From Rhizobiaceae bacterium (lineage in GTDB: Bacteria > Pseudomonadota > Alphaproteobacteria > Rhizobiales > Rhizobiaceae), in NCBI GenBank assembly GCA_019635715.1, contig JAHBYY010000003.1, positions 58,785 through 122,784 on the forward strand: a stretch of 64,000 nt of DNA. Reading direction: 5' to 3'. The notes beneath the pieces are model-generated. The model did not search any database and had not been told where the DNA came from. It saw only the letters and a list, made by a program, of their open reading frames with translations. The position numbers and the translations under genes are program-made. Every line of letters begins with the position of its first letter. Position 1 is the stretch's first letter. Of the stretch, positions 32,451 through 52,442 are shown in pieces.

Positions 32451-32465
32451 ACCTCCCGCTGACCA

Positions 32466-37166: not shown

Positions 37167-38105
37167 ATGGCCAAGGCCACATCCGGAAAAGTCATCATCA
37201 CCTGCGCCGTGACGGGCGCGATCCATACGCCGTCCATGTCGGAATATCTGCCGATCACCCCGCAGCAGATCATCGACGACGCGCTCGGCGCCGCGGAGGC
37301 GGGCGCGGCGATCCTGCACCTGCACGCCCGCAATCCCGAGAACGGCAAGCCGGACCAGACGCCCGAGGGCTTCATGAAGTTCCTGCCGCAGATCAAGCAG
37401 GCGACCAACGCGGCGATCAACCTGACGACCGGCGGCAGCCCCTACATGAAGGTCGAGGAGCGCGTGCTGCCGGCCCAGAAGCTGAAGCCGGAGGTGGCGT
37501 CGCTCAACATGGGCTCGATGAATTTCGGCCTTTTCCACCTGCTCGACAAATACAAGGAATTCAAGCACGACTGGGAGAAGCCGCATCTCGAAGCGACCAA
37601 GGACCTGGTGTTCCGCAACTCGTTCAAGGACATCGAGTTCATTCTCAAGACCTGCTACGAGAACAACACGCGCTTCGAGTTCGAGTGCTACGACATCGCC
37701 CATCTCTACAATCTCAAGCACTTCGCCGATCGCGGACTGGTCAAGCCGCCCTTCTTCGTGCAGTCGGTGTTCGGCATCCTCGGCGGCATCGGCACGCACC
37801 CCGAAGACGTCCAGCACATGAAGCGCACCGCTGATCGCCTGTTCGGCTCCGACTACCGCTGGTCGGTTCTCGGCGCCGGCGCCAGCCAGCTCAGGATCGC
37901 CGCGCAGGCGGCGGCCCTTGGCGGCAATGTCCGCGTCGGCCTGGAAGACTCGCTGTGGGCGGGCAAGGGCAAGCTGGCGAAATCCAGCGCCGATCAGGTG
38001 AAGCTGGTCCGCCAGATGATCGAAGGGCTCGGCCTGGAGATCGCGACGCCCGACGAGGCGCGCGAGATTCTCTCCCTCAAGGGGGCGGCCAGCGTCGGCT
38101 TCTGA
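37167..38105 (+). CDS. Beta-keto acid cleavage enzyme (BKACE, DUF849 family)
   Basis: A 312-residue TIM-barrel zinc enzyme of the BKACE family, which condenses a beta-keto acid with acetyl-CoA to give acetoacetate and a new CoA thioester. Family marks are ITCAVTGAIHTPSMSEYLPI at the N-terminus, the zinc/catalytic HLHARNP (about 51-57), INLTTGG, FECYDIAHLYNL, and a late WSVLGAGASQLRIAAQA. It follows the 3-hydroxy acid dehydrogenase by 35 bases and ends the operon ahead of a strong terminator. The dehydrogenase-BKACE pair defines a short oxidative-cleavage route, and the family's many uncharacterised subgroups leave the substrate open. Confidence 0.85.
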   Translation: MAKATSGKVIITCAVTGAIHTPSMSEYLPITPQQIIDDALGAAEAGAAILHLHARNPENGKPDQTPEGFMKFLPQIKQATNAAINLTTGGSPYMKVEERVLPAQKLKPEVASLNMGSMNFGLFHLLDKYKEFKHDWEKPHLEATKDLVFRNSFKDIEFILKTCYENNTRFEFECYDIAHLYNLKHFADRGLVKPPFFVQSVFGILGGIGTHPEDVQHMKRTADRLFGSDYRWSVLGAGASQLRIAAQAAALGGNVRVGLEDSLWAGKGKLAKSSADQVKLVRQMIEGLGLEIATPDEAREILSLKGAASVGF

Positions 38106-38137: not shown

Positions 38138-38180
38138 AAAAAATGCCGGCCGGGCTTCAATGCCCGGCCGGCATTTTTTT
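38138..38180 (+). terminator. Strong intrinsic terminator
   Basis: A perfect stem with arms TGCCGGCCGGGC and GCCCGGCCGGCA and a 6-base loop, flanked by six A on the left and seven T on the right, so it can terminate in both directions. It lies 32 bases past the BKACE stop and closes that operon. Confidence 0.92.
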
Positions 38181-38594
38181 GCCGACGTGCAAGCCCATCC
38201 GGAGCTTCTACGAACGCGCGGGCACCGCGTCCGGCTCCGGCCGCCGGATTGCCGGAACCGTTCTAATCCGAAAATCTTCGCACCTGCGAAATCGCCTTAG
38301 CGGACGCCGCAACCGGCGCGCCGCAGTGTCCGGATGCACCGTTTTTCCGGCACCGTTCTACCGACGGCCCGTCTGCCGCGCTGTCGCGCCGGCGGTGGAT
38401 TTTTGCAGCGCAGCAAGGTGTTGCCGGCCCCGGACTGTCCCTGGGAGGCCGCGCCCGCCCCGAGTCGGACCCGCCTTGCAAGCGTCATCAGGCTATTTTC
38501 CGGCTAATGAATAGCGCCATCGCTACAATGAATTTGCGCAAAAGGGAGCGGGAACGAAAGTAAGCGAAAGTGATATCACATAAAGGGAGGGGCA
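38181..38594. other. Intergenic region upstream of the Rieske/ABC/desaturase operon
   Basis: About 410 bases between a strong terminator and the Rieske ferredoxin gene, with no convincing coding sequence. The right end is AT-richer (GGCTATTTTCCGGCTAATGAA, then ATCGCTACAATGAATT) and probably contains the promoter. Directly repeated CGAAAGT boxes stand just before the ribosome binding site. Confidence 0.45.
38555..38571 (+). promoter_or_regulatory. Direct repeat CGAAAGT, possible operator
   Basis: Two copies of CGAAAGT (38555-38561 and 38565-38571) are spaced exactly 10 bases apart, one helical turn, 24 bases before the Rieske ferredoxin start. DeoR-family sugar repressors often bind tandem GAAA-rich repeats, but no DeoR gene lies in the window, so the binding protein could be encoded elsewhere or be the LysR protein at the operon end. 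Confidence 0.35.
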
Positions 38595-38927
38595 ATGACA
38601 GCCCAGACGCGCGGGGTCGAGAAGGCATGGGTGCGGGCGATCGCGGCCGACAGTCTGCCGGTGGACGATGCGACGCGCATCGAGCACGAGGGCCGCTGCA
38701 TCGCCATCTTCAACCTTGGCGGCAAATTCTACGCCACATCAGGCATCTGCACACATGCGCACGCCTTCCTTTCGGAAGGCTACATAGACGGTCAGACTGT
38801 GGAATGCCCGCTGCACCAGGGGCTGTTCCACATTCCGACCGGCACGCCGCTGTCGCCGCCCGTCACCGAGCGGCTGGAGACTTTTGAAACCCGTGTGTCC
38901 GACGGCTACGTCGACATTCTGGTCTGA
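38595..38927 (+). CDS. Rieske-type [2Fe-2S] ferredoxin
   Basis: A 110-residue soluble Rieske ferredoxin of the oxygenase-associated kind. The cluster ligands are Cys52/His54 (CTH) and Cys71/His74 (CPLH), 17 residues apart, and the rest of the sequence is a compact beta-sandwich with no catalytic domain. A GGGAGGGG site precedes the ATG. Such ferredoxins pass electrons from an FAD reductase to an oxygenase. Downstream in the same direction lie a matching ferredoxin reductase and a membrane di-iron desaturase-fold enzyme, so all three parts of an oxygenase system are present, with sugar transport genes in between. Confidence 0.9.
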   Translation: MTAQTRGVEKAWVRAIAADSLPVDDATRIEHEGRCIAIFNLGGKFYATSGICTHAHAFLSEGYIDGQTVECPLHQGLFHIPTGTPLSPPVTERLETFETRVSDGYVDILV

Positions 38928-38995
38928 GGGGACAGGCAGCCCCTGACTTTCGGGACATATCCCGGGCTGAAACCAAAATATGGGAGGAGAAATCA

Positions 38996-40297
38996 ATGCT
39001 GGAACTATCACGTCGCCAATTGCTGAGGTCCGCCGCGGCGGTCTCGGCGCTTGCACTGGTCCCCGTCACGTCGCTGCTGGCACAGGCCGATGACAAGGGC
39101 GTCCACACGATCCTCAACGAACTGATCAAGAAGTATTCCGACGAGGCGAAGGCCTCGATGTCGAACGAGGAGGTCGCCGCGCTGTTCGAGAAGGACGGCT
39201 TCCGCGACTATCTCGACGTCTATCCGGTCGGCGACCTGGCGGGCGGCTTCGTCTGGAAGCCCGGAATGGGCGCCACCTTCACCGGTCCTCACAGCAAGCT
39301 GGAGATCAAGTCGCCGTTCACCGACTATCTGCCGCTGCCGGAGGGCCCGGTGCTGGATCCCGACAAGAAGTACCGGATCGGCCTCGTCTTCCACGGCTTC
39401 AACCACCCCTGGCTGATCAGCCTCGCCGACACCGCCTCATGGGAGGCGGCGCGCCATCCCAACATCGAGCTCGAGGTCATCGACGCCGAGTTCGACGACA
39501 ACAAGATGGGTCAGGTCATCGATACCTGGATCGCCAAGCAGTATGACGGCATCGTGCTGTGGCCGAGCCGCGAAGCCCCGATGGGGCCGCCCGTCGATCG
39601 CGCCATCGCCGCCGGCATCCCGACGGTCAGCCTCGATCGCCGCACCTCCTCGGAAGTCATCAGCTCCGAAGTGCTCGGCAATTTCTACGCCAACGGCCTT
39701 CAGCAGGGCCTCTATCTCAAGCACGCCGCGCCGGACGGCAACATCATCTTCAACCGCAAGGATCTCGGCTCGACCGCCGACTCCATCCGCACCGGTGCGT
39801 TCCTCGAAGTGATCGGCAACACCCCCGGCTACAAGGTGCTGGCCAACTACCACACCAACAGCCAGCGCACGCTCGCCTTCAAGTCGACCGCCGACGCGCT
39901 GCAGGCGTTCAAGGACATCTCCGTGTCCTTCAACACGGGCGGCGAGGAGGCGATGGGCGCGCTGGACGCCATTCGCGAGGCCAACCGGCTGAACAGCGCG
40001 CCGGGCGGCAAGAAGATCATGATCCTGGCCAACGATGACGCGCGCGAAGTGCTCAAGGAGATCAGGGCCGGCAACATCGACATGGTGTCGCCCTACACGC
40101 CGCTGATCGGCGACATCGGCATCCGCGCCGTCGTCATGCATATCGGCGCCAAGGAGGGCAAGAACGAGGCGCCGCCGAAGTTGATCATGACGCCGAACCT
40201 GCCCATGATCACCCGGGAGAAGATGAACATCGAGGGCATCGAGACGCTGACGCCCGATGAGTGGCCCTACGCCTACGGTCCGGAAGCCTCCGGCTGA
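38996..40297 (+). CDS. Sugar-type ABC substrate-binding protein with N-terminal extension
   Basis: A 433-residue periplasmic protein of the RbsB/type 1 family, about 80-100 residues longer than usual. The N-terminus LSRRQLLRSAAAVSALALVP has a twin-arginine-like signal. An extra region of about 90 residues (35-120, with ALFEKDGFRDYLDVYPVGDL) precedes the normal start KYRIGLVFHGFNHPWLISL of the type 1 fold. The body has QVIDTWIAKQYDGIVLWPS and GIPTVSLDRRTSSE. The extension may add ligand or partner contacts. It is followed by a perfect hairpin and the permeases. The ligand is unknown, but the operon's oxygenase genes suggest a substituted sugar or polyol. Confidence 0.82.
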   Translation: MLELSRRQLLRSAAAVSALALVPVTSLLAQADDKGVHTILNELIKKYSDEAKASMSNEEVAALFEKDGFRDYLDVYPVGDLAGGFVWKPGMGATFTGPHSKLEIKSPFTDYLPLPEGPVLDPDKKYRIGLVFHGFNHPWLISLADTASWEAARHPNIELEVIDAEFDDNKMGQVIDTWIAKQYDGIVLWPSREAPMGPPVDRAIAAGIPTVSLDRRTSSEVISSEVLGNFYANGLQQGLYLKHAAPDGNIIFNRKDLGSTADSIRTGAFLEVIGNTPGYKVLANYHTNSQRTLAFKSTADALQAFKDISVSFNTGGEEAMGALDAIREANRLNSAPGGKKIMILANDDAREVLKEIRAGNIDMVSPYTPLIGDIGIRAVVMHIGAKEGKNEAPPKLIMTPNLPMITREKMNIEGIETLTPDEWPYAYGPEASG

Positions 40298-40314
40298 TCT
40301 CAGCCTCCCAGGCC

Positions 40315-40345
40315 GCCTGCCGGGCCTTTGCAAGGCCCGGCAGGC
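40315..40345 (+). terminator. Perfect 14-bp hairpin after the binding-protein gene
   Basis: Arms GCCTGCCGGGCCTT and AAGGCCCGGCAGGC pair perfectly over 14 bases with a 3-base loop, 18 bases past the binding-protein stop. There is no T run, and the next permease gene follows within 40 bases, so this most likely protects or attenuates the transcript, keeping the binding protein in excess. Confidence 0.6.
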
Positions 40346-40380
40346 ATCTGTCCAGCAAGGCACGCAGGTGCGATAGCGCG

Positions 40381-41373
40381 ATGACGACGATGGAAGACAA
40401 GGTCGCCGATCGGGGGGCGCCATCCCGGACGTTCGACATGGTGAGACAGGCGGGCAGCGGCGACCTGAGCCGTCTGGCCGTCCTCGTGGTGCTTGTCGTC
40501 CTCGGCCAGATCATCACCCCCGCGTTCCTGTCGCTGGGCAACGTTCACGTCATCCTCATGGCGGTCGCCGCCATCGGCATCATGGCCTACGGCATGACGC
40601 TGGTGGTCATCACCGGCGAGATCGACCTGTCGGTCGCCGGCATCGCCATCCTGTCCTGTGTCGTCGGCGGCCTGCTGATCCCGACCGGTTCGGCGGTTCT
40701 CGTCATCGGCGCGACGCTTGCGACGGGGCTGCTCGTCGGCCTGCTGAACGGCGTCCTCGTCGCGGCCATCGGCATTCCCTCGCTCATCGCCACGCTCGGC
40801 ATGCTCGGCATCAGCCGTGCGCTGGCCAACATCGCCTCGGGCGGACAGGCGCTCTATCCGGAGCCGATCGCCGCCTATCTTTGGCTCGGCCGCGGTGCCG
40901 TCGCCGGAGTGCCGGTGCCGGTTCTGCTTCTCGCAATCCTCGGGGTGGCCGCCATCCTGCTGACCCGATATTCGACGTTCGGCCGCGCCCTCTACGCGAC
41001 GGGCGGCAATGTGCGGGCGGCCGCGCTGTCCGGCATCAACACGGTTGCGGTGCGGACGGTCGTCTTCATGATCTCCGGCGTCTGCGCAGCACTCGCCGGC
41101 ATTCTGGAGTGCGCGCGCCTGTCCTACATCAATCCGGCGGGCCTTGAGGGCATGGAGCTTTCGGTGCTCGCCGTGACCGTGCTGGGCGGCGCCGCGCTCG
41201 CCGGCGGCTCGGGCTCGATCACCGGCACGCTGGTCGCCGCGGTGATCATCGGCATCGTCAACAACCTGCTCAATCAGATGGGCGTCAGCATCTATCTCCA
41301 GCAGGTGGTGACGGCGGCGGTGATCCTGGCGGTGGTGCTGCCGGGAATGTGGCGCCGGGGGATCGTGAAATGA
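40381..41373 (+). CDS. Sugar ABC transporter permease 1 (RbsC type)
   Basis: A 330-residue inner-membrane permease with eight to ten hydrophobic segments. The family loop VVITGEIDLSVAGIAIL, the ATGGNVRAAALSGI loop that contacts the ATPase, and the late GGAALAGGSGSITGTLV are all present. I use the ATG at 40381 (MTTMEDKV); longer in-frame starts run back into the binding-protein gene. Its stop overlaps the start of the second permease (ATGA), so the pair forms a heterodimer, unlike the fused permease of the previous operon. Confidence 0.88.
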   Translation: MTTMEDKVADRGAPSRTFDMVRQAGSGDLSRLAVLVVLVVLGQIITPAFLSLGNVHVILMAVAAIGIMAYGMTLVVITGEIDLSVAGIAILSCVVGGLLIPTGSAVLVIGATLATGLLVGLLNGVLVAAIGIPSLIATLGMLGISRALANIASGGQALYPEPIAAYLWLGRGAVAGVPVPVLLLAILGVAAILLTRYSTFGRALYATGGNVRAAALSGINTVAVRTVVFMISGVCAALAGILECARLSYINPAGLEGMELSVLAVTVLGGAALAGGSGSITGTLVAAVIIGIVNNLLNQMGVSIYLQQVVTAAVILAVVLPGMWRRGIVK

Positions 41374-42398
41374 GCGCGGCCGGACTTGCCTCTCCCTCCG
41401 CCTCGCGCCTCGGCCCCTTTCTCGCCGGGCTTCTGCGCGACCCGATCGTCTGGCTGATTGTCGCGATCTTCGCCGTCGGCTCGCTGACCTCGGAATACTA
41501 TCTGACCGCCGCCAACATCGAGAACCTGATGCGCAACATCGCGGTGATCGGCCTGCTGTCGCTCGGCATGACGGTGGTCCTGCTGACCGGGCGCATCGAC
41601 CTGTCGGTCGCCGCCCTGATGATCTTCTCGGTCATCGTCGGCGTCGTCCTGATGGCCTGGCTCGGCTCGGTGATCGGCGTGCGCTGGCTGGTGCGCGGCA
41701 ACACCTTCGCCGGCCCGACGCTCGCCGTCATGGGTATAGCGCTGGCGACGGGTGCCTTTGTCGGGGCGATCAACGGCATCGGCGTCGCCTATCTGAAGGT
41801 CGCGTCCTTCATCATGACGCTGGTGTCGCTGACGGCGCTGCGCGGCTTCAACTACGTGCTGACCAACGGCCATCCCTATTATCTCAAGTCGCCGCTGTTC
41901 AACTGGGTCGGCGACGCCAAGCTCGGCCCGGTTCCCGTCAGCTTCGCCATCTTCCTTGCCGTGCTCGTCGCCCTTATCGCCTTCGTCAACGGCACGGTGC
42001 GGGGAGGGCGCTTCTACGCCATCGGCGGCAACGAGAAGGCTGCCCTCTACGCCGGCATCAAGACGGCGCGCTACGTCGTGCTCGCCTTCGTCATCAGCGG
42101 CATCTGCGCGGCGATCGCCGGGATCGTGTTCACGGCACGCCTGAAGTCGGTCGATGCGCCTCTCGCCGCCGGCTACGAGCTTACCGCCATCGCCATCGCG
42201 GTCATTGGCGGTACGGCGCTGTCGGGCGGTGTCGGCTCCCCTTGGCGGACATTGCTCGGCAGCGTCGCATTCGCGGCGGGGCTGAACCTGCTCGCCATCT
42301 GGGGCGTCGGCACCTGGTATCAGAACCTGGCGATCGGCATCGTGCTGATCCTGTCCGTCGGCCTGTCGAAGTTGAGCCGCAAGAAAGTTCAGTCCTAA
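41370..42398 (+). CDS. Sugar ABC transporter permease 2 (RbsC type)
   Basis: A 342-residue inner-membrane permease, paralogous to the preceding one. It has VLLTGRIDLSVAALMIF, a longer periplasmic loop near 95-115 (GVRWLVRGNTFAG), the ATPase-contact loop AIGGNEKAALYAGIKTA, and GGTALSGGVGSPWRTLLGS near the end. The translated start is coupled to the previous stop by a 4-base overlap. A putative ribosome site GGGGG precedes the kinase gene 12 bases downstream. Confidence 0.88.
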   Translation: MSAAGLASPSASRLGPFLAGLLRDPIVWLIVAIFAVGSLTSEYYLTAANIENLMRNIAVIGLLSLGMTVVLLTGRIDLSVAALMIFSVIVGVVLMAWLGSVIGVRWLVRGNTFAGPTLAVMGIALATGAFVGAINGIGVAYLKVASFIMTLVSLTALRGFNYVLTNGHPYYLKSPLFNWVGDAKLGPVPVSFAIFLAVLVALIAFVNGTVRGGRFYAIGGNEKAALYAGIKTARYVVLAFVISGICAAIAGIVFTARLKSVDAPLAAGYELTAIAIAVIGGTALSGGVGSPWRTLLGSVAFAAGLNLLAIWGVGTWYQNLAIGIVLILSVGLSKLSRKKVQS

Positions 42399-42410
42399 AG
42401 GGGGAAGCAT

Positions 42411-43961
42411 ATGGCAGGACATCTGACGCTCGGCGTCGACATCGGCACGACCAATGTGAAGGCGGCGATCCTCAACACCGATACCGGCAAGCTGGTCGCC
42501 TTCGGCTCGCAGGAGCATCCGCTGTTCCATCCCTTTCCGGGCTGGGCCGAGCAGGAAGCCGGAAACTACTGGAGCGCCGTGGTCTCGGCCATCCGCCAGT
42601 GCCTCGACCAGGGCAATTTCGCCGACGACATCGCCGCGGTGGCGCTGTCCGGCCTGGTCGGCGTCACCCTGCCGGTCAGCGACCAGGGCAAGCCGCTGCG
42701 CGCCGCGATGATCTGGATGGATTCGCGTTCCGAGGAGGAATGCGAGGACATCCGCCGCAGCGTCGGCGAGAAGACCATCAACAAGAACAACGGCAACCGT
42801 GTCGCGCCGTGGTTCATCGATCCCAAGGCGCTGTGGATCAAGAAGCACGAGCCCCACATCTTCAACGCGACCCACAAATTCCTGTCGCCGTCGGGCTACT
42901 GCACCTACCGCATGTGCGGCAACTTCACCATGAACACCGGCGATGCCGGCCTCGCCTACGCCTATGAATACCAGAAGGAGCGCTGGAACGAGTCGATCGC
43001 CAAGGCCATCGGCATCCCGCTGGAGAAACTGCCGCGGCTCTACCAGAGCCACGAGGTCGTCGGCGAGGTCACCAAGCAGGCCGCCGAGGAGACGGGCCTG
43101 CGACCGGGCACGATCGTCGCCGCCGGCGGCACCGACATCAGCTCCGCGGCGCTCGGCGTCGGCGTCACCAAGGCCGGCGAGGCCTACTATTCGATGGGCA
43201 CCGGCTCCAACCTCGGCATCATGATCCCGACCGAGCAGAACGTCGAGGAATACCGCATCCTGAAATGGCCGCACGTCCTGCCCGGCCTGACCATGTTCGA
43301 CGGGCCGATGGCGTTCACCGGCGCCTCGCTCAAATGGTTCCGCGATCAGTTCGGCGATGTCGAGTTCCGGCTCGCCGAACGCATGGGCCACAATGTCTTC
43401 GACCTGTTCACCGAACAGGCCAAGCAGGTCTCGCCGGGCTCGGACGGCCTGCTCTACCTTCCCTATCTCGGCAACACGCTGTCGCCCAACTGGAACAGCA
43501 ATGCCTGCGGCGTGTTCTTCGGCGTCCGGCCGACCACGGCGCGTGCGACCTTCATCCGCTCGCTGATCGAGGGCGTGGCCTTCGACCTCTATTCCAACGT
43601 CAAGGTCGCCAATGCGGCGGGCGTCAGGGTCGACGGGCTGATCCTCAACGGCGGGCCGACCAAGAGCCGCTTCTGGAACCAGATCACCGCCAACGTCCTC
43701 AACCTGCCGCTGAAGGTGCCGGACATCGGCGAGGCGGCGCCGATCGGCGATGCGATCCTCGCCGGCGTGGCGGCCGGCATCTACAAGTCGCCCGTCGAGC
43801 CGCTCGACAAGATCGTCCGCATCAAGGAGACGATCGAACCGGATGCCAAGCTGCACGAACGCTACGAAGCGTTCTTCGAGGTCTGGTCGTCGGTCTACCA
43901 GAACCTGCGCGGCGACATGGATCGCCACCGCGCGCTGCTCAACAAATACTACGCGGGCTGA
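42411..43961 (+). CDS. FGGY-family carbohydrate kinase (xylulokinase-like)
   Basis: A 516-residue two-domain sugar kinase. The first ATP-phosphate motif GVDIGTTNVKA lies at residues 8-18; MIWMDSRSEEE marks the sugar-binding catalytic Asp region; AGGTDISSAALG and YSMGTGSNLG form the second half; the FGGY signature appears as LNGGPTKSRFWNQITANVL. It is closest by eye to xylulokinases, but FGGY kinases phosphorylate many sugars and polyols (ribulose, erythritol, glycerol). Placed inside the ABC operon, it should phosphorylate the imported compound or the product of its dealkylation. It is followed in 4 bases by the ATPase gene. Confidence 0.86.
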   Translation: MAGHLTLGVDIGTTNVKAAILNTDTGKLVAFGSQEHPLFHPFPGWAEQEAGNYWSAVVSAIRQCLDQGNFADDIAAVALSGLVGVTLPVSDQGKPLRAAMIWMDSRSEEECEDIRRSVGEKTINKNNGNRVAPWFIDPKALWIKKHEPHIFNATHKFLSPSGYCTYRMCGNFTMNTGDAGLAYAYEYQKERWNESIAKAIGIPLEKLPRLYQSHEVVGEVTKQAAEETGLRPGTIVAAGGTDISSAALGVGVTKAGEAYYSMGTGSNLGIMIPTEQNVEEYRILKWPHVLPGLTMFDGPMAFTGASLKWFRDQFGDVEFRLAERMGHNVFDLFTEQAKQVSPGSDGLLYLPYLGNTLSPNWNSNACGVFFGVRPTTARATFIRSLIEGVAFDLYSNVKVANAAGVRVDGLILNGGPTKSRFWNQITANVLNLPLKVPDIGEAAPIGDAILAGVAAGIYKSPVEPLDKIVRIKETIEPDAKLHERYEAFFEVWSSVYQNLRGDMDRHRALLNKYYAG

Positions 43962-43965
43962 CCAG

Positions 43966-45459
43966 ATGACCGAGCCGGCGCCGCTTCTCGAGGTGAAGTC
44001 GATCCGCAAGACCTTTCCCGGCGTACTTGCGCTGGCCGACGTCACCTTCGACCTCCGCGCCGGCGAGGTCCATTCGCTGGTCGGCGAGAACGGCGCGGGC
44101 AAGTCGACGCTTCTGTCGATCATGAACGGGCTGATCTCGCCGGACAGCGGCGAGATCAGGATCGGCGGCGAGACGGTCGTTCTCAGCGATCCGACCGTGG
44201 CGCTCGGCAAGCGCCTGGCGCTCGTCCATCAGGAACTTGTGCTCTGCCCCAATCTCAGCGTGGCCGAGAACATCTTCCTGGGGCGCGAGCCCGCGGCACG
44301 GGCAGGCAGCAACCGCCGCGCCACCCTGATCGGCATGGCGCAGGACCTGCTGGACGAGATCCATGTGACGCTCGACCCGACGCGTCCGGTCGGCGAGCTC
44401 AGCCTCAACGAGCAGCAGATCGTCGAGATCTGCCGGGCGCTCGCCAGCCGGCCGAACATCCTCGTCTTCGACGAGCCCACCGCCTCGTTGAACGACGACC
44501 AGGTCGCGCATCTCCTGGCGATCATCCGCAAGCTGAAGGCGAACGGGCTGGGCATCGTCTACGTCTCGCACCGGCTCGGCGAGGTGCTCGACATTTCCGA
44601 CCGGGTGACCGTGCTGCGCGACGGGCATGTCGTCGGCACGCGCGACATCGGCGGGCTGACGGAGGCGGCGCTCGTTTCGATGATGGTCGGCCGCGAGCAC
44701 AAGCCGGGGCAGACCGCCTTCCGCGAGCGGCAGCATGGCGACACGGCGCTCGAGGCGCGCGCCATCGGCAAGGCCGATGTCTTCGACGACGTCTCGCTGG
44801 ACGTGCGCGCCGGCGAGATCGTCGGGATCGCCGGCCTGCTCGGCTGCCAGCGCGAGGCGGTGGTCCGGGCGATTTTCGGCGCCACGGCGATCGACAGCGG
44901 CGAAATCCGGGTGCGCGGCAAGCCGGTACACATGAGGTCGCCGCGCGACGCCATCGAGGCGGGCATCGGCTTCATGCCGGCCGACCGCAAGGGCGAGGGC
45001 CTGGTGCTGCCGATGAATGTCGGCGACAATCTGGGGCTGACGATCCTGAGACGGCTCGGCCGTCTCGGCATGCTGCGGCGGCGCCAGCGCAATGTGCTCG
45101 GCACCGAGGTGGTCCGCAAGCTGGCGGTGAAGGCAAGCGGGCTGTCGCAGACGGTCTCGCAGCTTTCGGGAGGCAATCAGCAGAAGATCGTCATCGGCAA
45201 ATGGATCCTGCGCGGCGGCGACATCGTCATCGCCGAGGATCCGACGCGCGGCGTCGATGTCGGCGCAAAATTCGAGATCTGGCGCACCATTCAGGGGCTC
45301 GCGGAGCAAGGCAAGGCGGTGATCCTGCTGACCACCGAGCTCCAGGAGATGATGGATGCCTGCGACCGCATCCTGGTGATGAGCCGCGGACGGGTGACCG
45401 GCCACTTTCACCGCCGCGACTTCTCCGCCGAGGCCATCGCCCACTGCTTCGTCACCTGA
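43966..45459 (+). CDS. Sugar ABC transporter ATP-binding protein (two NBDs)
   Basis: A 497-residue tandem ATPase. The first domain has Walker A VGENGAGKST and Walker B ILVFDEPTASL with a loose signature (LSLNEQQIVEI). The second has QLSGGNQQKIVIGKW and IAEDPTRGVDVG, where the expected D-E-P is E-D-P, a swap at the Walker B and catalytic acids that parallels the change in the other sugar ATPase of this window. ATG 43966 fits the family N-terminus (MTEPAPLLEVKSIRKTF); the frame stays open upstream inside the kinase gene. It serves the binding protein and the two permeases upstream. Confidence 0.88.
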   Translation: MTEPAPLLEVKSIRKTFPGVLALADVTFDLRAGEVHSLVGENGAGKSTLLSIMNGLISPDSGEIRIGGETVVLSDPTVALGKRLALVHQELVLCPNLSVAENIFLGREPAARAGSNRRATLIGMAQDLLDEIHVTLDPTRPVGELSLNEQQIVEICRALASRPNILVFDEPTASLNDDQVAHLLAIIRKLKANGLGIVYVSHRLGEVLDISDRVTVLRDGHVVGTRDIGGLTEAALVSMMVGREHKPGQTAFRERQHGDTALEARAIGKADVFDDVSLDVRAGEIVGIAGLLGCQREAVVRAIFGATAIDSGEIRVRGKPVHMRSPRDAIEAGIGFMPADRKGEGLVLPMNVGDNLGLTILRRLGRLGMLRRRQRNVLGTEVVRKLAVKASGLSQTVSQLSGGNQQKIVIGKWILRGGDIVIAEDPTRGVDVGAKFEIWRTIQGLAEQGKAVILLTTELQEMMDACDRILVMSRGRVTGHFHRRDFSAEAIAHCFVT

Positions 45460-45556
45460 TGCGATACCGATAACAGTATGGGAACAATGAATTTTCCTTT
45501 CGGCGGGCCGGTCTTTATTGGTCAGCGTACCGAATACAGACTGAAGGAGACGGACC

Positions 45557-46552
45557 ATGCAGGGTAATGCCTCGGCGAGCTATGCCGGCATTGGCGGCAT
45601 CGGCAGCAAGATCTGGCCGCTGACCGGCCCGGAAATCATCTCGCGCGACACGCTGAAGACGTTGCGCATGCGCAGCAACGGGCCGGGCCTGCTGCGGCTG
45701 GTCGTCCATCTCGCGGCGCTGCTGCTGACCGGAACGCTCGTCTATCTCGCATCGTGGACGCTCTGGCTGCAGATCCCTGCCATGCTGCTCTACGGCGTGG
45801 TGATCGTCCTGCTCTTCGCGCCGCTGCACGAATGCTCGCACGGCACGGCCTTTCACTCGCGCTGGATCAACCATGTGGTCGGCTTCGCGGTCGCGGCCTT
45901 CACGCTCCGGCCGTTCCTCTATTTCAAGTACCGTCATGCCGCGCACCACACCTACACGCAGCACGAGGACCATGATCCGGACATCGTGCCGTTCCCGACC
46001 TCGATGCGCGATTATTTCGCGCAGATCCTCGGCCTGTCCTTCTGGCCGAAGCTGATCGGCACGCTGTGGCGCGGCTGTACCGGTCGCTTCACCGAAGAGG
46101 AGCGCACCTTCCTGCCGGAGTCGGTGTTCAAGACGGTGATGCTGGAAATCCGTCTGCTCGTCGTGCTGTACATTCTGATCGCCGCCGTCTCGATCTACTT
46201 CGGATCGACGGTCGCGCTGGTCTACTGGCTGCTGCCGCGCATCATGGGCGAGCCGGTGCTGCGCGCCATCCGCATGGCGGAGCATACGGGGGCGGAAGAG
46301 AGCCCGAATCTGCTCGCCAACACCCGCACGACGCTCGCCAATCCGGTTCTGCGGATGCTCTACTGGAACATGCCGTTCCACGCCGAGCACCATCTGGCGT
46401 CGTCGGTGCCGTTCCATGCCCTGCAGCGCCTGCACGACGAGGTATCGCCGCACCTGCAATGCGTCAGCAAGGGTTATGTCCAGGTGCATCGGGAGATCAT
46501 CCGCGAGGTGATCGGCAATCGCCGGCGGGCCACCGCCGGGCAGGGAGCCTGA
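45557..46552 (+). CDS. Membrane di-iron enzyme of the fatty acid desaturase/hydroxylase fold
   Basis: A 331-residue integral membrane protein with about four to six hydrophobic segments and the three histidine boxes of the desaturase/alkane hydroxylase superfamily: HECSH (91-95), HAAHH (127-131) and HAEHH (285-289), plus His136 and His243 as likely extra iron ligands. These bind a non-heme di-iron centre that desaturates or hydroxylates. The spacing fits desaturase-fold enzymes and not long AlkB-type ones. Between the last ABC gene and this one is a 97-base gap that may hold its own promoter, with AAGGAG before the ATG. A ferredoxin reductase follows in 6 bases and a Rieske ferredoxin heads the operon, so hydroxylation or oxidative dealkylation of the imported substrate is a better guess than fatty acid desaturation. 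Confidence 0.82.
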   Translation: MQGNASASYAGIGGIGSKIWPLTGPEIISRDTLKTLRMRSNGPGLLRLVVHLAALLLTGTLVYLASWTLWLQIPAMLLYGVVIVLLFAPLHECSHGTAFHSRWINHVVGFAVAAFTLRPFLYFKYRHAAHHTYTQHEDHDPDIVPFPTSMRDYFAQILGLSFWPKLIGTLWRGCTGRFTEEERTFLPESVFKTVMLEIRLLVVLYILIAAVSIYFGSTVALVYWLLPRIMGEPVLRAIRMAEHTGAEESPNLLANTRTTLANPVLRMLYWNMPFHAEHHLASSVPFHALQRLHDEVSPHLQCVSKGYVQVHREIIREVIGNRRRATAGQGA

Positions 46553-46558
46553 GTCGCG

Positions 46559-47803
46559 ATGACCGCCGCCGGGAGGACGGCAGGCGTCGTCATCATCGGG
46601 GCCGGCCATGCCGGCGGACGCACCGCTGAACGCCTGCGGCACGGTGGCTACGTCGGCCCGATCGACGTGGTCGGCATCGAGCGCGAACTGCCCTATGAGC
46701 GGCCGCCGCTGTCCAAGGGCGTGCTGACGGCGCCCGAGGTTCCGGCCAACGCCTATCTGCTGCCGGCGTCGAAATGGGCCGAGCTCGGCGTAAAATTCCA
46801 CCTCGGCTGCGAGGCGCTGTGGATCGACCGGGTCGGCAAGGCGGTCACCGTTTCGAACGGCACCGTGCTGCCCTACCGCAAGGTGGTGATCGCCACCGGA
46901 CTGGTGCCGCGCCGGCTGCCGGCGCTCGCCCCGGTCGCGGCGAACGTGATCCATCTCCGCACCTTTCAGGATGCCGTCGCGCTGCGCCAGATGATCGGCG
47001 CCGGCCGGCGGGCCGTTCTGATCGGCGCCGGCCTGATCGGGCTCGAGACCGCGGCGAGCGCGGTCAAGCGCGGCGCCGCTGTCACCGTCATCGAGGCCGC
47101 CGACCGTCCGCTGTCCCGCTTCGTGCCGGCCTATCTCGCCGCATGGCTGGCCGGCCTGCACGCCGCGGCGGGCGTCGACATACGGTGCGGCAGGCGGGTC
47201 GTCGATTCCGCCGACGCTGGCGGCGTCGCCCGGCTGGTGCTCGACAACGGTGCGCATATCGAGGCGGATCTCGTGCTGGTCGGCATAGGCGGGGTCCCCA
47301 ACGACCGCATCGCCCGCAATGCCGGCCTTTCCGGGGAAAACGGCGTCGTCGTCAACGAGTTCGGCCAGACCAGCGATCCCGACATTTTCGCGGTCGGCGA
47401 CGTTGCTGCGCATTTTTCCCCGCTGTTCGCGCGCCGCTGGCGGCTGGAGTCGTGGAAGAACGCGGAGGACATGGCCGCGGTGGCGGCGGCCCATATCTGC
47501 GGCAGCGCGGCTCCCTATGTGGAGACGCCCTGGTTCTGGACGGATCAGTACGACCACAACATCCAGGTCGCCGGCGTTCCGGGGGACACCGTCCCGTCGT
47601 TCGAACGCGGCCGTCCGGGAGACCGTGGCTATCTTGCCTATTTCGTCGAGGATGGCCGGCTGCGCGGCGCTATCGGCATCGGATGCGGCCGCGACGTCCG
47701 CCTGGCGCGCGAGGCGATCAAGGCGGGCGGGCGCGTCGATCCCGGCGATCTCGCGGCAAGGGGGTTCGCGGCGACGGCGGCCCGGGCGAGGCGGGCGTCG
47801 TGA
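46559..47803 (+). CDS. FAD-dependent ferredoxin reductase (oxygenase reductase type)
   Basis: A 414-residue flavoprotein of the BphA4/rubredoxin reductase family. The FAD motif VVIIGAGHAGGRTAERL starts near residue 9, ERELPYERPPLSKG follows, the NAD motif AVLIGAGLIGLETAASA lies near 150, DIFAVGDVAAH near 280, and ESWKNAEDMAAVAAAHI with TPWFWTDQYDHNIQVAG closes the domain in the form usual for oxygenase reductases. It moves electrons from NAD(P)H to a ferredoxin, here surely the Rieske protein at the start of the operon. Its stop overlaps the GTG start of the alcohol dehydrogenase (GTGA). Confidence 0.9.
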   Translation: MTAAGRTAGVVIIGAGHAGGRTAERLRHGGYVGPIDVVGIERELPYERPPLSKGVLTAPEVPANAYLLPASKWAELGVKFHLGCEALWIDRVGKAVTVSNGTVLPYRKVVIATGLVPRRLPALAPVAANVIHLRTFQDAVALRQMIGAGRRAVLIGAGLIGLETAASAVKRGAAVTVIEAADRPLSRFVPAYLAAWLAGLHAAAGVDIRCGRRVVDSADAGGVARLVLDNGAHIEADLVLVGIGGVPNDRIARNAGLSGENGVVVNEFGQTSDPDIFAVGDVAAHFSPLFARRWRLESWKNAEDMAAVAAAHICGSAAPYVETPWFWTDQYDHNIQVAGVPGDTVPSFERGRPGDRGYLAYFVEDGRLRGAIGIGCGRDVRLAREAIKAGGRVDPGDLAARGFAATAARARRAS

Positions 47804-48909
47804 TCAGGTCCCGCGCCGCGGTCTGCATTGGACCGAACACGCCGCTCGTCGTCCAGGAGATCGATGTCGCGCCGCCCGGTTTCGGCGAAGCGCTCGTCGA
47901 GATCGTCGCGTCGGGCCTGTGCCACACCGATCTGACCGCGCTGGACGGGATGAACGCCTCCAGCGTCTATCCGCTTGTTCCGGGCCATGAGGGGGCGGGG
48001 CGCGTCGTGGAGGTTGGCGAGGGCGTCCGCGACCTCAAGCCCGGCGACCACGTTATTCCGCTCTACGGGCCGGAATGCAAGGAATGCCGGATGTGCCTGA
48101 GCGGCCGCACCAATCTGTGCTGGACGATCAAGCCGACACGCGACAGGGGCGTCATGCCGGACGGGACCTCCCGGTTCCGCTGCGACGACGCCTCGGTGCA
48201 TCATTTCATGGGCACCTCGACGCTGTCGCGATACACGGTGGTGCCGGAGATCGCGCTGGCCAAGGTCCGTCCCGACGCGCCGCTGGACAAGGTCTGCCTG
48301 TTCGGCTGCGGGGTCACCACCGGCGTCGGAGCTGCCTTGTCGGAGATCCGCGCCGGCGACGACGTGGCGGTCTTCGGCCTCGGCGGCATAGGGATCAACG
48401 TCGTTCAGGGCGCCCGGCTGGCCGGCGCGCGGCGGATCATCGGCATCGATGTCACGGAGCGCAAGAACGACCTTGCCATCGCCTACGGCATGACCGATTT
48501 CGTCCATGCCGGCCGCGAGGCCGGTCGCGTGGTCCAGGCCATCCGCGAGATCGCCTCGGGCGGCGTCGACGTCGCCTTCGAGTGCACGGGGCTCGTCCCG
48601 GTGATGCGGCAGGCCTTCGACTGCTGCCAGCCCGCATGGGGCACGGCCGTGCTGCTCGGCGTCGAGCCGCCGGGGGCCGAGATGGGCTTTCCGCCGGTCG
48701 GCGTGCGCTACGGCCGAACCATCAAGGGCAGCTATTTCGGCGGGGTGAAGGGGCGCAGCGGTCTCGGCCGGCTGGTCGACTTCTACATGGACGGACGGCT
48801 CGACCTCGACCGCCAGATCACTCACACCCTCCAACTGGAGGAGGTGAACCACGGGTTCGACCTGATGCGTGCCGGCGAGTCGGTGCGCAGCGTCGTGCGG
48901 TTCGAGTGA
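47800..48909 (+). CDS. Class III-type zinc alcohol dehydrogenase (formaldehyde dehydrogenase-like)
   Basis: A 369-residue medium-chain dehydrogenase that strongly resembles glutathione-dependent formaldehyde dehydrogenase. Catalytic zinc ligands are Cys41 (CHTD), His63-Glu64 (GHEGAG) and Cys170 (GCGVTTGVG); structural zinc ligands are Cys93, 96, 99 and 107. GLGGIGINVVQGARLAGA is the NAD site, and DGTSRF, HHFMGTSTLSRYTVV and SYFGGVKGRSGL match class III segments. The start is a GTG overlapping the reductase stop. The usual class III substrate is S-hydroxymethylglutathione, formed from formaldehyde, so its place beside an oxygenase hints at oxidative demethylation. Other long-chain or aromatic alcohols remain possible. 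Confidence 0.84.
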   Translation: MIRSRAAVCIGPNTPLVVQEIDVAPPGFGEALVEIVASGLCHTDLTALDGMNASSVYPLVPGHEGAGRVVEVGEGVRDLKPGDHVIPLYGPECKECRMCLSGRTNLCWTIKPTRDRGVMPDGTSRFRCDDASVHHFMGTSTLSRYTVVPEIALAKVRPDAPLDKVCLFGCGVTTGVGAALSEIRAGDDVAVFGLGGIGINVVQGARLAGARRIIGIDVTERKNDLAIAYGMTDFVHAGREAGRVVQAIREIASGGVDVAFECTGLVPVMRQAFDCCQPAWGTAVLLGVEPPGAEMGFPPVGVRYGRTIKGSYFGGVKGRSGLGRLVDFYMDGRLDLDRQITHTLQLEEVNHGFDLMRAGESVRSVVRFE

Positions 48910-49739
48910 CCGCGGCGCCGAGGCTCGACAACGAAGCCGGTTACGTCTTCCGCGACCGCCATCCGGAGCGGGGCGAGGTGTACCGGCGATACGACGAGGC
49001 GAGCGCCGCGGCCCGCGCCCGCCTCGACTGCCGGCTCGACCTGCGCTACGGCGGCCATGCGCGCCAGCGCTTCGACCTTTTTCCCGCCGGACCAGGGGCT
49101 CCGCTGCTGGTGTTCATCCATGGCGGCTACTGGCAAAGCCTCGACAAGGAGCGCTTCTCCTTCGTCGCCTCGGCCTTGGTGAAGCGCGGCTTCACGGTGG
49201 CGCTTCCCGCCTATCCTTTGGCACCTGAAGTCCGGGTGGAGCAGATCGTGCGGTCCGTCGACACAGCATTCGACGCGATCGTCGCGACGCTCGATGCGCC
49301 GCCGCCGTTCTGGATCGCCTGCGGCCATTCCGCCGGCGGGCATCTGGCGGCGATGCTTGCGATCGCCCGATCCGGCGGTCCGATTCCGCTCGCCGCCTGC
49401 ATAGCGATCAGCGGCATCTTCGACCTGGAGCCGTTGATCCGAACCTCGCTGAACCGGGCGCTGGCGCTCGACCTTGTGTCCGCGCAGGATTTGAGCCCCT
49501 GTCGCAAGCAGCCGGCCGACTGTCGCCTCCTTGCCTATGTCGGCGCGGACGAGACCGGCGAATTCGACCGGCAATCCCGCGACTTCGCGCGGCACTGGCG
49601 GCGGTCCGGAGCACAATCGGACTGCGTCGCCTTGCGAAACCGCAACCATTACACGATCCTGAGCGATCTGCTGGAGCAGCGGTCTTCGATAGCGGAAGGA
49701 ATTGTCGGGGCGGCGGAAGCCTTTCGCCGGGGGGAGTAG
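48906..49739 (+). CDS. Alpha/beta hydrolase (arylformamidase/esterase-like)
   Basis: A 277-residue alpha/beta-fold hydrolase. The oxyanion-hole motif IHGGYWQSLDK (about 71-81) and nucleophile elbow GHSAGGHLAAM (Ser122) are as in kynurenine formamidase-like esterases; a late acid and His (RNHYTIL) complete the triad. The GTG start overlaps the alcohol dehydrogenase stop by 4 bases, so it belongs to the same operon. It could hydrolyse a formyl ester or S-formylglutathione made by the dehydrogenase, or an ester on the imported compound; S-formylglutathione hydrolases of the FrmB type look different, so the former is only a possibility. Confidence 0.76.
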   Translation: MTAAPRLDNEAGYVFRDRHPERGEVYRRYDEASAAARARLDCRLDLRYGGHARQRFDLFPAGPGAPLLVFIHGGYWQSLDKERFSFVASALVKRGFTVALPAYPLAPEVRVEQIVRSVDTAFDAIVATLDAPPPFWIACGHSAGGHLAAMLAIARSGGPIPLAACIAISGIFDLEPLIRTSLNRALALDLVSAQDLSPCRKQPADCRLLAYVGADETGEFDRQSRDFARHWRRSGAQSDCVALRNRNHYTILSDLLEQRSSIAEGIVGAAEAFRRGE

Positions 49740-49743
49740 GGGT

Positions 49744-50628
49744 TTGAACGGCTCGAGCAAGCTGCATTTCGTCAATTTCAGCCAGCTACGGTCTTTTTAT
49801 GCGGTCGGACGCGAACTCAGCTTCACCAAGGCGGCCGAGCTGCTGCACATCGGCCAGCCGACGGTCACGACCCAGGTGAAGGCGCTGGAGGAAACCTACG
49901 ACGTTCAACTGTTCCTGCGCTCGCCGCGCGGCCTGCGCCTGACCGACGCCGGCGAAGCGCTGCTGACCGTCGCCCGCCAGATCTTCTCGCTCGAGGAGCA
50001 GGCGGTCGGCATCCTCAGCGCGGAAGGCAACCAGGTTTCCGGCAAGCTGCGCGTCGGAACGGTCGGGCCGTTCTTCGTCATGAACCTGCTTTCGGCCTTC
50101 CACACCCGCTATCCCCTGATGCAGGTGTTCCTCGAAAGCGGCAATTCCGACGTCGTCTACAACAAGCTGCTCAACTACGAGGTCGACGTGGCCATCATCG
50201 GCCGCGACTACGACGACCCGCGCCTCGACGCCATCCACCTCGGCCGCCACGAGGTCATCATCTTTGTCCACCGCGACCATCCCTGGGGCGGAAGGCAGCA
50301 CATCGACCTTGCCGAACTCGACGGCCAGCGGATGATTTCGCGCGAGCAGGGATCCATGACGCGGCGCGCGCTGGAGGACCGGCTCGACCAGTACCGGGTG
50401 CGTCCGAACGTCGTGATGGAGGTGCCGCGCGACGCCGTGCGCGAAGCCGTCGCCGCGGGCCTCGGAGCGGGCATCGTCTCGATCACCGAGTTCGTGCCCG
50501 ACGATCGCCTGACGGCCCTGCGGGTGGCGGACCACAAGCCTTTTACGGAGTCCTACGCGGTCTGCCTGAAGGTGCGGCGCTCGCTGCGCCCGATCGACGC
50601 CTTCATGCAGCTAGTGCAGCAGGGCTGA
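49744..50628 (+). CDS. LysR-family transcriptional regulator
   Basis: A 294-residue LysR regulator with a TTG start preceded by a GGGGGGAG site. The N-terminal HTH (about 10-70) reads FYAVGRELSFTKAAELLHIG, then QPTVTTQVKALEETYDVQLF. The effector domain (about 95-290) has the usual two lobes, including KLRVGTVGPFFVMNLLSAFH and AVAAGLGAGIVSITEF. By eye it resembles LysR proteins linked to aminoethylphosphonate and related catabolic genes. It is the last gene of the long Rieske-desaturase operon, 4 bases after the hydrolase, so it is probably cotranscribed and autoregulated and controls the pathway. Confidence 0.85.
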   Translation: MNGSSKLHFVNFSQLRSFYAVGRELSFTKAAELLHIGQPTVTTQVKALEETYDVQLFLRSPRGLRLTDAGEALLTVARQIFSLEEQAVGILSAEGNQVSGKLRVGTVGPFFVMNLLSAFHTRYPLMQVFLESGNSDVVYNKLLNYEVDVAIIGRDYDDPRLDAIHLGRHEVIIFVHRDHPWGGRQHIDLAELDGQRMISREQGSMTRRALEDRLDQYRVRPNVVMEVPRDAVREAVAAGLGAGIVSITEFVPDDRLTALRVADHKPFTESYAVCLKVRRSLRPIDAFMQLVQQG

Positions 50629-50742
50629 GCCGCCGCCACGCGCCCCGCGGCCGGGGACAACCATTTTCCTCGTCATGCGTTATCGCCGACATGCGGCGCT
50701 GGCCTCGCCGGTGCCGTGCAAGGCGAGACGAGGAGGACTGCC

Positions 50743-51075
50743 ATGAAACGCATACTTCCCGCCCTGCATGAGGGCCATGCTCCTGTCGATCTTCACAATG
50801 CCTTCGCCGACGCGCTCGATGCCTTCGACGACTGGGGTCTGGGTGCGCCCGAGCCCGCGGTGGAGTTCGGCGGCGACCAGGTCGCGATCAGCGCCGTTTT
50901 CGGCCGGATGCGCACCTGCGACGATATCCTTCCGGAGAGATTGCGCCTCGCCGTCGACGACATCGTCGGCCCGGGTGCCCTGGACACGGGCGCGTCGGCG
51001 CCGGTCAGGCTCGCCGACGCGGCTCTGCGTCTGCGCGCCCTGTGCGTCGAGCGCTTGACGAAGGGAGGGGGCTAG
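50743..51075 (+). CDS. Small conserved hypothetical protein
   Basis: A 110-residue acidic soluble protein, start at ATG 50743 with AGGAGGA 7 bases before it. It begins KRILPALHEGHAPVDLHNAF, then has an amphipathic segment and a DIVGPGALDTG stretch. There are two cysteines but no recognised motif. It lies 114 bases after the LysR gene and stands alone. I do not recognise the family. Confidence 0.5.
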   Translation: MKRILPALHEGHAPVDLHNAFADALDAFDDWGLGAPEPAVEFGGDQVAISAVFGRMRTCDDILPERLRLAVDDIVGPGALDTGASAPVRLADAALRLRALCVERLTKGGG

Positions 51076-51149
51076 CAAACCGTTTCCAATTCCAGTTGCG
51101 GGACGGAAAATCCGTCCCGCAAACCTCTCGAAAATCGCAATCGACAAAT

Positions 51150-51166
51150 TCTACCAGTGTTGTAGA
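51150..51166 (+). promoter_or_regulatory. Palindromic operator-like site upstream of a small membrane protein
   Basis: TCTACCAGTGTTGTAGA has perfect 5-base outer arms (TCTAC/GTAGA) around 7 bases. It lies 24 bases before the start of the 44-residue protein, where a repressor would overlap the promoter. The cognate regulator is unknown. Confidence 0.35.
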
Positions 51167-51190
51167 TTAAAAATCGCGACGGAGGTTGAT

Positions 51191-51325
51191 ATGGCACTCG
51201 TTCAATCGACGAACTTACCCCCCAGGACGGCTCGCCCGGCCCTGCTGCAGGCTGTCGCCGGCTATGCGATCTTCGCTCTGTCCTTCGGTTTTGCCGCCGC
51301 CGTCATCTTCGGATTCGTTTCCTGA
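51191..51325 (+). CDS. Small single-pass membrane protein, 44 residues
   Basis: An open frame of 44 codons with a strong GGAGG site 5 bases upstream of ATG 51191. The first 20 residues are polar and include two Arg (LPPRTARPALLQ), followed by a hydrophobic helix of about 20 residues (YAIFALSFGFAAAVIFGFVS) that reaches the stop. It has its own palindromic operator-like site and stands tail-to-tail with cysA. Small membrane proteins of this kind are often missed; no homologue is known to me. Confidence 0.5.
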   Translation: MALVQSTNLPPRTARPALLQAVAGYAIFALSFGFAAAVIFGFVS

Positions 51326-51422
51326 TCTGCAGAGATTGACCGGCGCCGGACGCCCGGGCCTCGCCGAGGCCGGCGCTTCGGTCGGCCGGCAATGACGGGC
51401 GGCCGCAGCCGGCCTCTGCTCT

Positions 51423-52442
51423 TCAGCTCAGCGGAAACACATTCGCGCGGCGGATGCGGACGAACCCGATGTCCTGCGACCTCACCGCGGTTTCCGGCGG
51501 CACGTCGAGTTCGAGCGAAGTGCCGTCGCCCAGCCTTGCGAGGATGCGCCGGTTCTCCGGCCGGTCGATCACCCGGGTGACCGTGGCGGGGATGCCCCCC
51601 GTGTCGGACCAGTCGAGATCGGAGGGACGGACGAACACTTCGGCGCGTCCGTCGGTGACCCCGGGCGCGGCGATCTCGCCGCCGGCGATCCGCGCACGGC
51701 CGTCGCGGATCGACGCTTCGAGGCGGTTGGCGTCGCCGAGGAATTGCGTGACGAAGGCGGAGTTCGGGCTGCGGCAGACCTGTTCCGGCGTGCCCTGCTG
51801 AACGATCCTGCCCTCGTTCAGGATGACGATCCGGTCGGCGAGGTCCAGCGCCTCCTCCTGGTCGTGGGTGACGAACAAGGTCGTGATGCCCAGCGCCTCG
51901 TGGATCTCGCGCAGCCAGCGGCGCAGTTCGCGCCGCACATTGGCATCGAGCGCGCCGAAGGGCTCGTCGAGCAGCAGCACCTTCGGATCGACGGCGAGCG
52001 CGCGGGCCAACGCCACCCTTTGGCGCTGACCGCCGGAGATCTGCGTCGGAAAACGCCCGCCCAGGCCGCTCAGCCGCACCAGGTCGAGCAGCTCGCCGAC
52101 CCGCCTGTCGATCTCGGCGCGGCCGCGCTTCACCTTCGACACCTTCATTCCGAAGGCGACGTTCTCGGCGACCGTCATGTGCGGGAACAGCGCGTAGTGC
52201 TGGAACACGAAGCCGACGCCGCGGTCGCGCACCGGTATGGCCGTGGCGTCCTGCTCGCCGAAATGGATCGTGCCGGCGTCGGAATATTCGAGGCCCGCCA
52301 CCATCCGCAGGATGGTCGTCTTGCCGGATCCCGAGGGGCCGAGCAGCGCGACCAGTTCGCCGCTGCCGATTTCCAGCGACACGTCGCGCACGGCGCGGAA
52401 CGTGTCGAAGGTCTTCACCACATGGTCGAGGCGGATCTTCAT
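51423..52442 (-). CDS. cysA: Sulfate/thiosulfate ABC transporter ATPase
   Basis: A 339-residue ABC ATPase: Walker [13 protein letters not shown]-loop [13 protein letters not shown], signature [15 protein letters not shown], Walker [20 protein letters not shown], and switch His in VTHDQEEA. The C-terminal 100 residues form the TOBE/OB regulatory domain ([18 protein letters not shown]) expected for CysA. The start overlaps the cysW stop by 4 bases. It drives import of sulfate or thiosulfate and closes the sbp-cysT-cysW-cysA operon. Confidence 0.9.

Follow-up and report, generated by a model that had tools for sequence, protein, structure and literature searches.

We analysed a 64,000-nucleotide stretch of the genome of a Rhizobiaceae bacterium (NCBI GenBank assembly GCA_019635715.1, contig JAHBYY010000003.1, positions 58,785 to 122,784, hereafter the window), in which eleven plus-strand genes between 38595 and 50628 combine a sugar transporter and a carbohydrate kinase with the components of a membrane oxygenase. 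Pfam assignments confirmed the eleven genes with the domains that an earlier note, made from the letters alone, had named. The features are as follows.

38138..38180, +, intrinsic terminator-like hairpin and T run (read from the sequence; a scan gave an inner palindrome at 38159-38175 with a T tail)
38518..38535, +, control site 1, YATNNNNANAATGAATTK, preceding the first gene, probable LysR operator (footprint, 11 loci)
38595..38927, +, Rieske [2Fe-2S] ferredoxin, probable electron carrier of the oxygenase (PF00355; MocE model 86 bits, cut-off 136)
38996..40297, +, RbsB-type sugar-binding protein, CUT2 (PF13407)
40384..41373, +, RbsC-type permease 1 (PF02653; start uncertain, 40261 or 40384)
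41370..42398, +, RbsC-type permease 2 (PF02653; start uncertain, 41349 or 41370)
42411..43961, +, FGGY carbohydrate kinase of a separate subfamily (PF00370/PF02782; below the XylB cut-off)
43966..45459, +, RbsA-type ATP-binding cassette (ABC) ATPase (PF00005, two ATPase stretches)
45477..45494, +, control site 2, second copy of the motif, in the spacer 5' of the oxygenase gene (footprint, shuffles, genome counts)
45557..46552, +, desaturase-fold membrane di-iron oxygenase, MocD-like, in a clade of its own (PF00487; tree)
46559..47803, +, flavin adenine dinucleotide (FAD)-dependent ferredoxin reductase, HcaD/MocF type (PF07992, PF14759)
47800..48909, +, zinc alcohol dehydrogenase, class III-related (TIGR02818, 456 bits, cut-off 544)
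48906..49739, +, alpha/beta hydrolase related to esterases and kynurenine formamidase (PF07859, PF20434)
49702..50628, +, LysR-type regulator, the last gene (PF00126, PF03466; start uncertain)

The spacers, described earlier as mostly under 15 bases or overlapping, are short or overlapping in seven of ten cases, and the three longer ones measure 68 bp after the ferredoxin gene, about 86 bp after the binding-protein gene (assuming that permease 1 starts at 40384) and 97 bp before the oxygenase gene, the last of these containing a conserved control site. With its RbsB-type binding protein, BPD_transp_2 permeases and two-domain ATPase, the transporter is of the CUT2 type.

Fixed gene order and a shared control site

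All eleven genes were present in identical order and on the same strand in each of the 11 relatives with complete loci (L001, L002, L041, L042, L044-L049 and L078, two of which are one species, S. terangae), and in L043, whose locus is incomplete at both ends, the ABC ATPase, oxygenase, reductase and alcohol dehydrogenase genes still stood in order. Oxygenase homologues of 73% identity were located in Sinorhizobium mexicanum and S. terangae by tblastn of plasmids, and a single search of genome contigs, run with a profile built from four sequences, gave nine loci; because it relied on two short peptide patterns, the list of relatives is a lower bound. Since order and strand were kept in 11/11 relatives despite identities as low as 44% (reductase) and 43% (hydrolase), the grouping is more than chance and represents a real unit. 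In comparisons with three relatives, the binding protein, kinase, oxygenase and alcohol dehydrogenase were the most conserved (70-91%) and the reductase and hydrolase the least (44-65%), the best-conserved proteins being those predicted to see the substrate, and the ratio of nonsynonymous to synonymous substitution rates of the eleven genes was 0.07-0.37 in the 31 comparisons, of 33 attempted, that could be computed. Flanking sequences (short stretches from ten loci, 2.2-6.9 kb on the left and 0.1-9.9 kb on the right) gave strong matches between close Sinorhizobium relatives only, and between lineages a handful of matches of 32-51% identity had no common position.

Some soil and root bacteria carry this tightly kept eleven-gene set. 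Among 394 sampled Rhizobiaceae genomes, the oxygenase gave matches at E ≤ 1e-70 in nine, seven at 71-100% identity (the window's own genome included) and two at 39%, and the binding protein was found in seven of the 394, exactly those with an oxygenase above 70% identity. The kinase was present in all seven of these operon genomes, to which its search was directed. The three sampled genomes of the same genus had no oxygenase orthologue, binding protein or exact control site, which indicates that the unit comes and goes. As L078 was drawn from the genome sample and other loci probably overlap it (L002, L045, L048, L049 and L043), the survey of relatives and the 394-genome survey are not independent.

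A new finding is an 18-bp element that precedes both the first gene and the oxygenase gene. It emerged from an alignment of the window with ten relatives, and its exact motif occurred twice in the window compared to 0 occurrences in 100 shuffles. Before the first gene the exact pattern was present in 12/12 loci (the window and the 11 complete relatives), and before the oxygenase gene in 9/12, with one base changed in L044, L048 and L049. Ten whole genomes contained 14 exact matches, of which 12 fell within the unit in the seven operon genomes and two outside it, both in the draft genome G458, one inside a long open frame and the other without a clear promoter position; the remaining six operon genomes, the window's own included, had no match outside the unit, and the reversed pattern gave 0 matches in the ten genomes. 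In the Sinorhizobium loci and L045 (CATTC-AAA-GAATG), the upstream copy forms a perfect inverted repeat, as it does with other letters in L048 and L049 (CATTG-GCA-CAATG); the repeat is imperfect in the window, L041, L042, L044 and G658. This symmetry may be the one expected for a dimeric regulator. We infer that the LysR protein of the unit binds the shared site. The shared conserved site together with the co-occurrence suggests that the transporter, kinase and oxygenase genes probably form one regulon, and with the ferredoxin gene at the head of the first half and the oxygenase and reductase genes in the second, each half should depend on the other.

The oxygenase and its electron carriers

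The three full histidine boxes attributed to the desaturase-fold protein are all present (H91xxxH95, H127xxH130H131 and H275xxH278H279, plus H243), and these nine histidines were kept in 48/48 aligned homologues. Its Pfam name, fatty acid desaturase, also carried by the annotations of the relatives L003, L005, L006 and L007 (L004 is named MocD-like), would allow the enzyme to modify membrane lipids or another envelope component while merely parked with a plain sugar operon. This we consider very improbable, as the lipid desaturase models DesA and DesB gave 42-44 bits relative to a cut-off of 500, the gene order is fixed in 11/11 relatives, the ferredoxin gene leads the transporter half and the same site precedes both halves; on these scores and the linkage, identity as a lipid desaturase was rejected. 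The GntB arginine hydroxylase model was likewise far from its threshold (42.9 bits, cut-off 380), and the lipid desaturase, GntB and carotene hydroxylase models together ranged from 32 to 44 bits with cut-offs of 380-500. A search of the oxygenase profile against solved structures returned no credible match (best E 0.021).

In a tree of 48 homologues, the oxygenases of the unit formed one 13-row clade (support 100/100), and the MocD-like rows L004, L005 and L010 formed another (100/100). The 22 rows with a nearby ferredoxin gene required four label changes on the tree compared to 16 for shuffled labels, and ferredoxin-linked and MocD-like rows fell together on one side of a branch supported at 91/96, opposite a 23-row group without a nearby ferredoxin gene. 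Rows were labelled for ferredoxin from short loci; L043 and L051 lack the label only because their loci end early (L078 carries the ferredoxin for the genome of L051). The tree was built from the collected loci rather than from every homologue match, leaving out duplicates (L008, L012, L050, L052, L053 and L054) and rows with internal stops (L016, L018, L021 and L025), and the distant row L011 makes its root arbitrary. The placement in a tree, which the earlier note had asked for, thereby supports a grouping of the oxygenase with ferredoxin-linked, MocD-type oxygenases, and the families and linkage of the three proteins point to a redox partnership of reductase, ferredoxin and oxygenase. Because the unit is conserved and its oxygenase shares a site with a sugar importer and a kinase, this oxygenase branch is suggested to act on small imported polar compounds.

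Other ferredoxin-linked relatives (L003, L006, L066 and L067) lie near quaternary-amine, guanidino-acid, 2-hydroxyacid-dehydrogenase, amidase or BPD_transp_1 genes, and perhaps belong to a wider family of small-molecule oxygenases.

A three-component system of the same kind is already described in rhizopine catabolism, together with its use on a methylated cyclitol, and the earlier statement that no described pathway has this gene set was too strong to that extent. MocDEF resembles the unit in its desaturase-fold oxygenase, Rieske ferredoxin and FAD reductase, whose genes lie together close to one for an RbsB-type binding protein; it acts on a sugar-like compound and is inducible. According to a passage of PMC2593844, MocD is held to convert 3-O-methyl-scyllo-inosamine to scyllo-inosamine, and a passage of PMC10107442, citing Bahar et al. 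1998, has scyllo-inosamine inducing the mocD promoter. The oxygenase, ferredoxin and reductase of the unit are 32%, 34% and 39% identical, respectively, to the rhizopine-type set of Rhizobium lentis. The unit differs in that its ferredoxin scored 86.2 bits relative to the MocE (TIGR02377) cut-off of 136.15, which MocE controls exceeded (178.1, 178.7 and 185), in that its oxygenase lies outside the MocD clade, and in that its eleven genes (the flanks are annotated in part) include no inositol or rhizopine gene and no MocR-type regulator, having instead the FGGY kinase, alcohol dehydrogenase, hydrolase and LysR regulator. MocDEF itself was rejected as the identity of the unit on the ferredoxin score, the separate clade and the gene set. 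No description of such a gene set, or of an oxygenase joined to an FGGY kinase, appeared among the open-access literature matches listed, most subscription papers lying outside that scope.

The same genome also carries a separate MocD-MocE-MocF-like set (L010 and L065, G000 contig 76), with a ferredoxin above the MocE family cut-off (185 bits) and adjoining ABC transporter genes. In R. lentis (L005, 12663-14404), the moc genes are followed by genes for ketopantoate hydroxymethyltransferase (panB) and formyltetrahydrofolate deformylase (purU), a possible folate outlet for the methyl carbon.

A candidate dealkylation route and its alternatives

The binding protein (75-89% identity in 8 orthologues) has a twin-arginine translocation signal match just below cut-off and about 120 extra N-terminal residues, and it scored 48.8 bits with the RbsB model NF007936, far from the cut-off of 337. 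It keeps the Asp-Arg pair of ribose-type binders and differs at several other aligned positions that we take to be ribose contacts, differences that fit an unusual ligand without proving one. In 385 Alphaproteobacteria genomes, one relative was found besides the protein in its own genome, the distant L063 (G1054 contig 114, about 330-350 bits), which lies beside a 1243-codon frame for a hybrid histidine kinase, suggesting its use as a periplasmic sensor.

The kinase (80-91% identity in 8 orthologues) has the FGGY domains named earlier, and its XylB model score falls short of the curated TIGR01312 cut-off (337.6 against 380.25 bits). XylB and the autoinducer-2 (AI-2) kinase LsrK, both of the FGGY family, were its best NCBIfam and solved-structure matches. 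Aligned to 2itm and 5ya0, it retains the presumably catalytic Asp and, unlike xylulokinase, has LVG in place of QMH. Among the plasmid kinases listed, two were the Sinorhizobium copies of the unit and the other 28 were 30-34% identical. A further FGGY kinase (234 bits) is encoded at 49995-51470 of G000 contig 75, about 7 kb to the left of the window.

For the alcohol dehydrogenase, the label class III was right as to relationship, with FrmA the best-matching family, and too strong as an assignment (456 bits, TIGR02818 cut-off 543.95). The Cys and His residues that we take to bind its two zinc ions were invariant in 9 aligned sequences. The positions of Asp55, Glu57 and Arg114 in class III enzymes, presumably contacts to S-hydroxymethylglutathione, are occupied by Asn, Ser/Thr and Lys in 12/12 copies, and a separate FrmA, above the family cut-off and with Asp, Glu and Arg at these positions, is encoded on another contig of the same genome. 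With its glutathione contacts replaced, the enzyme should not be called a glutathione-dependent formaldehyde dehydrogenase; that identity was rejected, and the earlier assignment of hydroxymethyl-glutathione as its substrate is not supported. Among solved structures, those most similar to the hydrolase were of a lipase, an esterase and kynurenine formamidase (9n8r, 2pbl and 4e11), and its Ser142, Glu216 and His248 were invariant in 9 aligned sequences.

Taken with the conserved order and the shared site, these features lead us to read the eleven genes as a self-contained, substrate-induced catabolic unit for an imported sugar-like compound, likely by oxidative O-dealkylation followed by phosphorylation (probability about 0.5). 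The binding protein, the two permeases and the ATPase would import the compound. Electrons from reduced nicotinamide adenine dinucleotide (NADH) would pass via the FAD reductase and the Rieske ferredoxin to the oxygenase in the membrane, a di-iron enzyme that would oxidise its imported substrate in the way that MocDEF is held to oxidise 3-O-methyl-scyllo-inosamine; its most likely point of attack is an O-alkyl carbon, probably that of an O-methyl group. From the hemiacetal, or from its aldehyde, the zinc alcohol dehydrogenase and the esterase- or formamidase-like hydrolase could then make a formyl ester or an acid and free the sugar, and the FGGY kinase would phosphorylate the freed ketose or polyol for central metabolism. 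Neither an isomerase nor an aldolase is encoded in the unit, and the genome of the window has no other gene marked by the exact motif, so the product of the kinase is expected to feed straight into central metabolism. The LysR protein would control two transcription units, ferredoxin-transporter-kinase and oxygenase-reductase-dehydrogenase-hydrolase-regulator, through one kind of site. O-dealkylation is favoured (about 0.45-0.5) on two grounds: it is the reaction ascribed to the described three-component relative, and the dehydrogenase and hydrolase suit a hemiacetal. The earlier proposal that an imported alkylated sugar is dealkylated thus gains from the MocDEF precedent, the conserved set and the shared site, while the alkyl group, the substrate and the dealkylation step are still matters of inference. 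A narrower and distinctly tentative version would be a pathway for alkyl ethers of ketoses or polyols, in which the oxygenase is wired to the FGGY kinase, a repurposed class III-type dehydrogenase turns the hemiacetal into a formyl ester for the alpha/beta hydrolase, no formaldehyde is released and a private two-site regulon governs the whole.

The main competitor, which we regard as unlikely though more plausible than the others, is C-H hydroxylation: the oxygenase would hydroxylate the deoxy position of an imported deoxy-sugar or deoxy-polyol, the dehydrogenase would make a ketose for the FGGY kinase, and the hydrolase would open a lactone or remove an acyl group. The same gene set accommodates this scheme, AI-2 kinase and xylulokinase are the solved structures closest to the kinase, and relatives within the fold family hydroxylate C-H bonds (the GntB model, at 43 bits, is far below its cut-off of 380). 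The described relative MocDEF is, however, assigned to O-demethylation in the cited passage of PMC2593844, and the hydrolase and dehydrogenase would fit a hemiacetal-to-formyl route at least equally well.

An improbable alternative takes the substrate to be a nitrogen-bearing sugar-like compound (an amino sugar, an opine-like compound or a quaternary-amine conjugate) that is N-dealkylated or hydroxylated, with the formamidase-like hydrolase removing an N-formyl group. The hydrolase is related to kynurenine formamidase (4e11, 125 bits), a related desaturase and ferredoxin lie among sarcosine oxidase and trimethylamine methyltransferase-family genes in Ruegeria, another related pair lies beside a guanidino-oxopentanoate decarboxylase gene, and rhizopine bears an amino group; yet the eleven genes encode no amine-handling enzyme, and no further gene of the window's genome is marked by the exact control motif.

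Several observations weigh against O-dealkylation. The unit has no function specific to one-carbon (C1) metabolism, and the dehydrogenase residues are not of the glutathione-formaldehyde dehydrogenase type; panB and purU, which adjoin mocDEF in R. lentis, are not among the eleven genes (the genome was not searched for them), and the 85%-complete genome yielded no S-formylglutathione hydrolase above the family cut-off. The 91/96 support joining the MocD rows is moderate, with a tool warning of long branches, and related oxygenases adjoin amino-acid and quaternary-amine genes, so that the reaction may be a different one. AlphaFold models were too poor to use (mean predicted local distance difference test score 40.9 for the oxygenase and 39.0 for the binding protein, from shallow alignments). 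A further point comes from the P450-based O-demethylation of 6-O-methyl-D-galactose in marine Flavobacteriia, which resembles the unit in joining an oxygenase, its redox partners and a neighbouring zinc alcohol dehydrogenase in sugar use: the abstract of PMC10033563 states that growth needs this dehydrogenase and that it is not involved in formaldehyde detoxification. That system differs in using a cytochrome P450 rather than a desaturase-fold enzyme and in belonging to other organisms, and its abstract names no FGGY kinase.

With one ligand-binding protein, one kinase, one regulator and two operators, the unit is a small testable system through which the substrate could be identified, and it may point to a plant or soil sugar derivative used by root-associated bacteria.

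Upstream border and neighbouring genes

The hairpin at 38138-38180 is predicted to end the upstream operon, whose last gene encodes a beta-keto acid cleavage enzyme (BKACE), and to form the left border of the unit. The BKACE gene and the 3-hydroxyacyl-CoA-dehydrogenase-like gene upstream were rejected as members, given the terminator between them and the unit and the relatives that lack them: over the loci of 12 relatives searched (L043 included), the dehydrogenase-like gene gave 0 matches and BKACE one weak match (46 bits), at 1690-2595 of L045 (Mesorhizobium sp. YM1C-6-2), where it lies just 5' of the unit as in the window. Both genes belong to a second, sugar-acid-like cluster directly upstream of the unit and outside it (29172-38105), which encodes an SMP-30/gluconolactonase, a GntR regulator (minus strand), an RbsB-type binding protein, an ABC ATPase, two permeases, the 3-hydroxyacyl-CoA-dehydrogenase-like protein and BKACE (Pfam for five genes; the ATPase and permeases judged from translations), and which may serve the oxidation and cleavage of a sugar acid.

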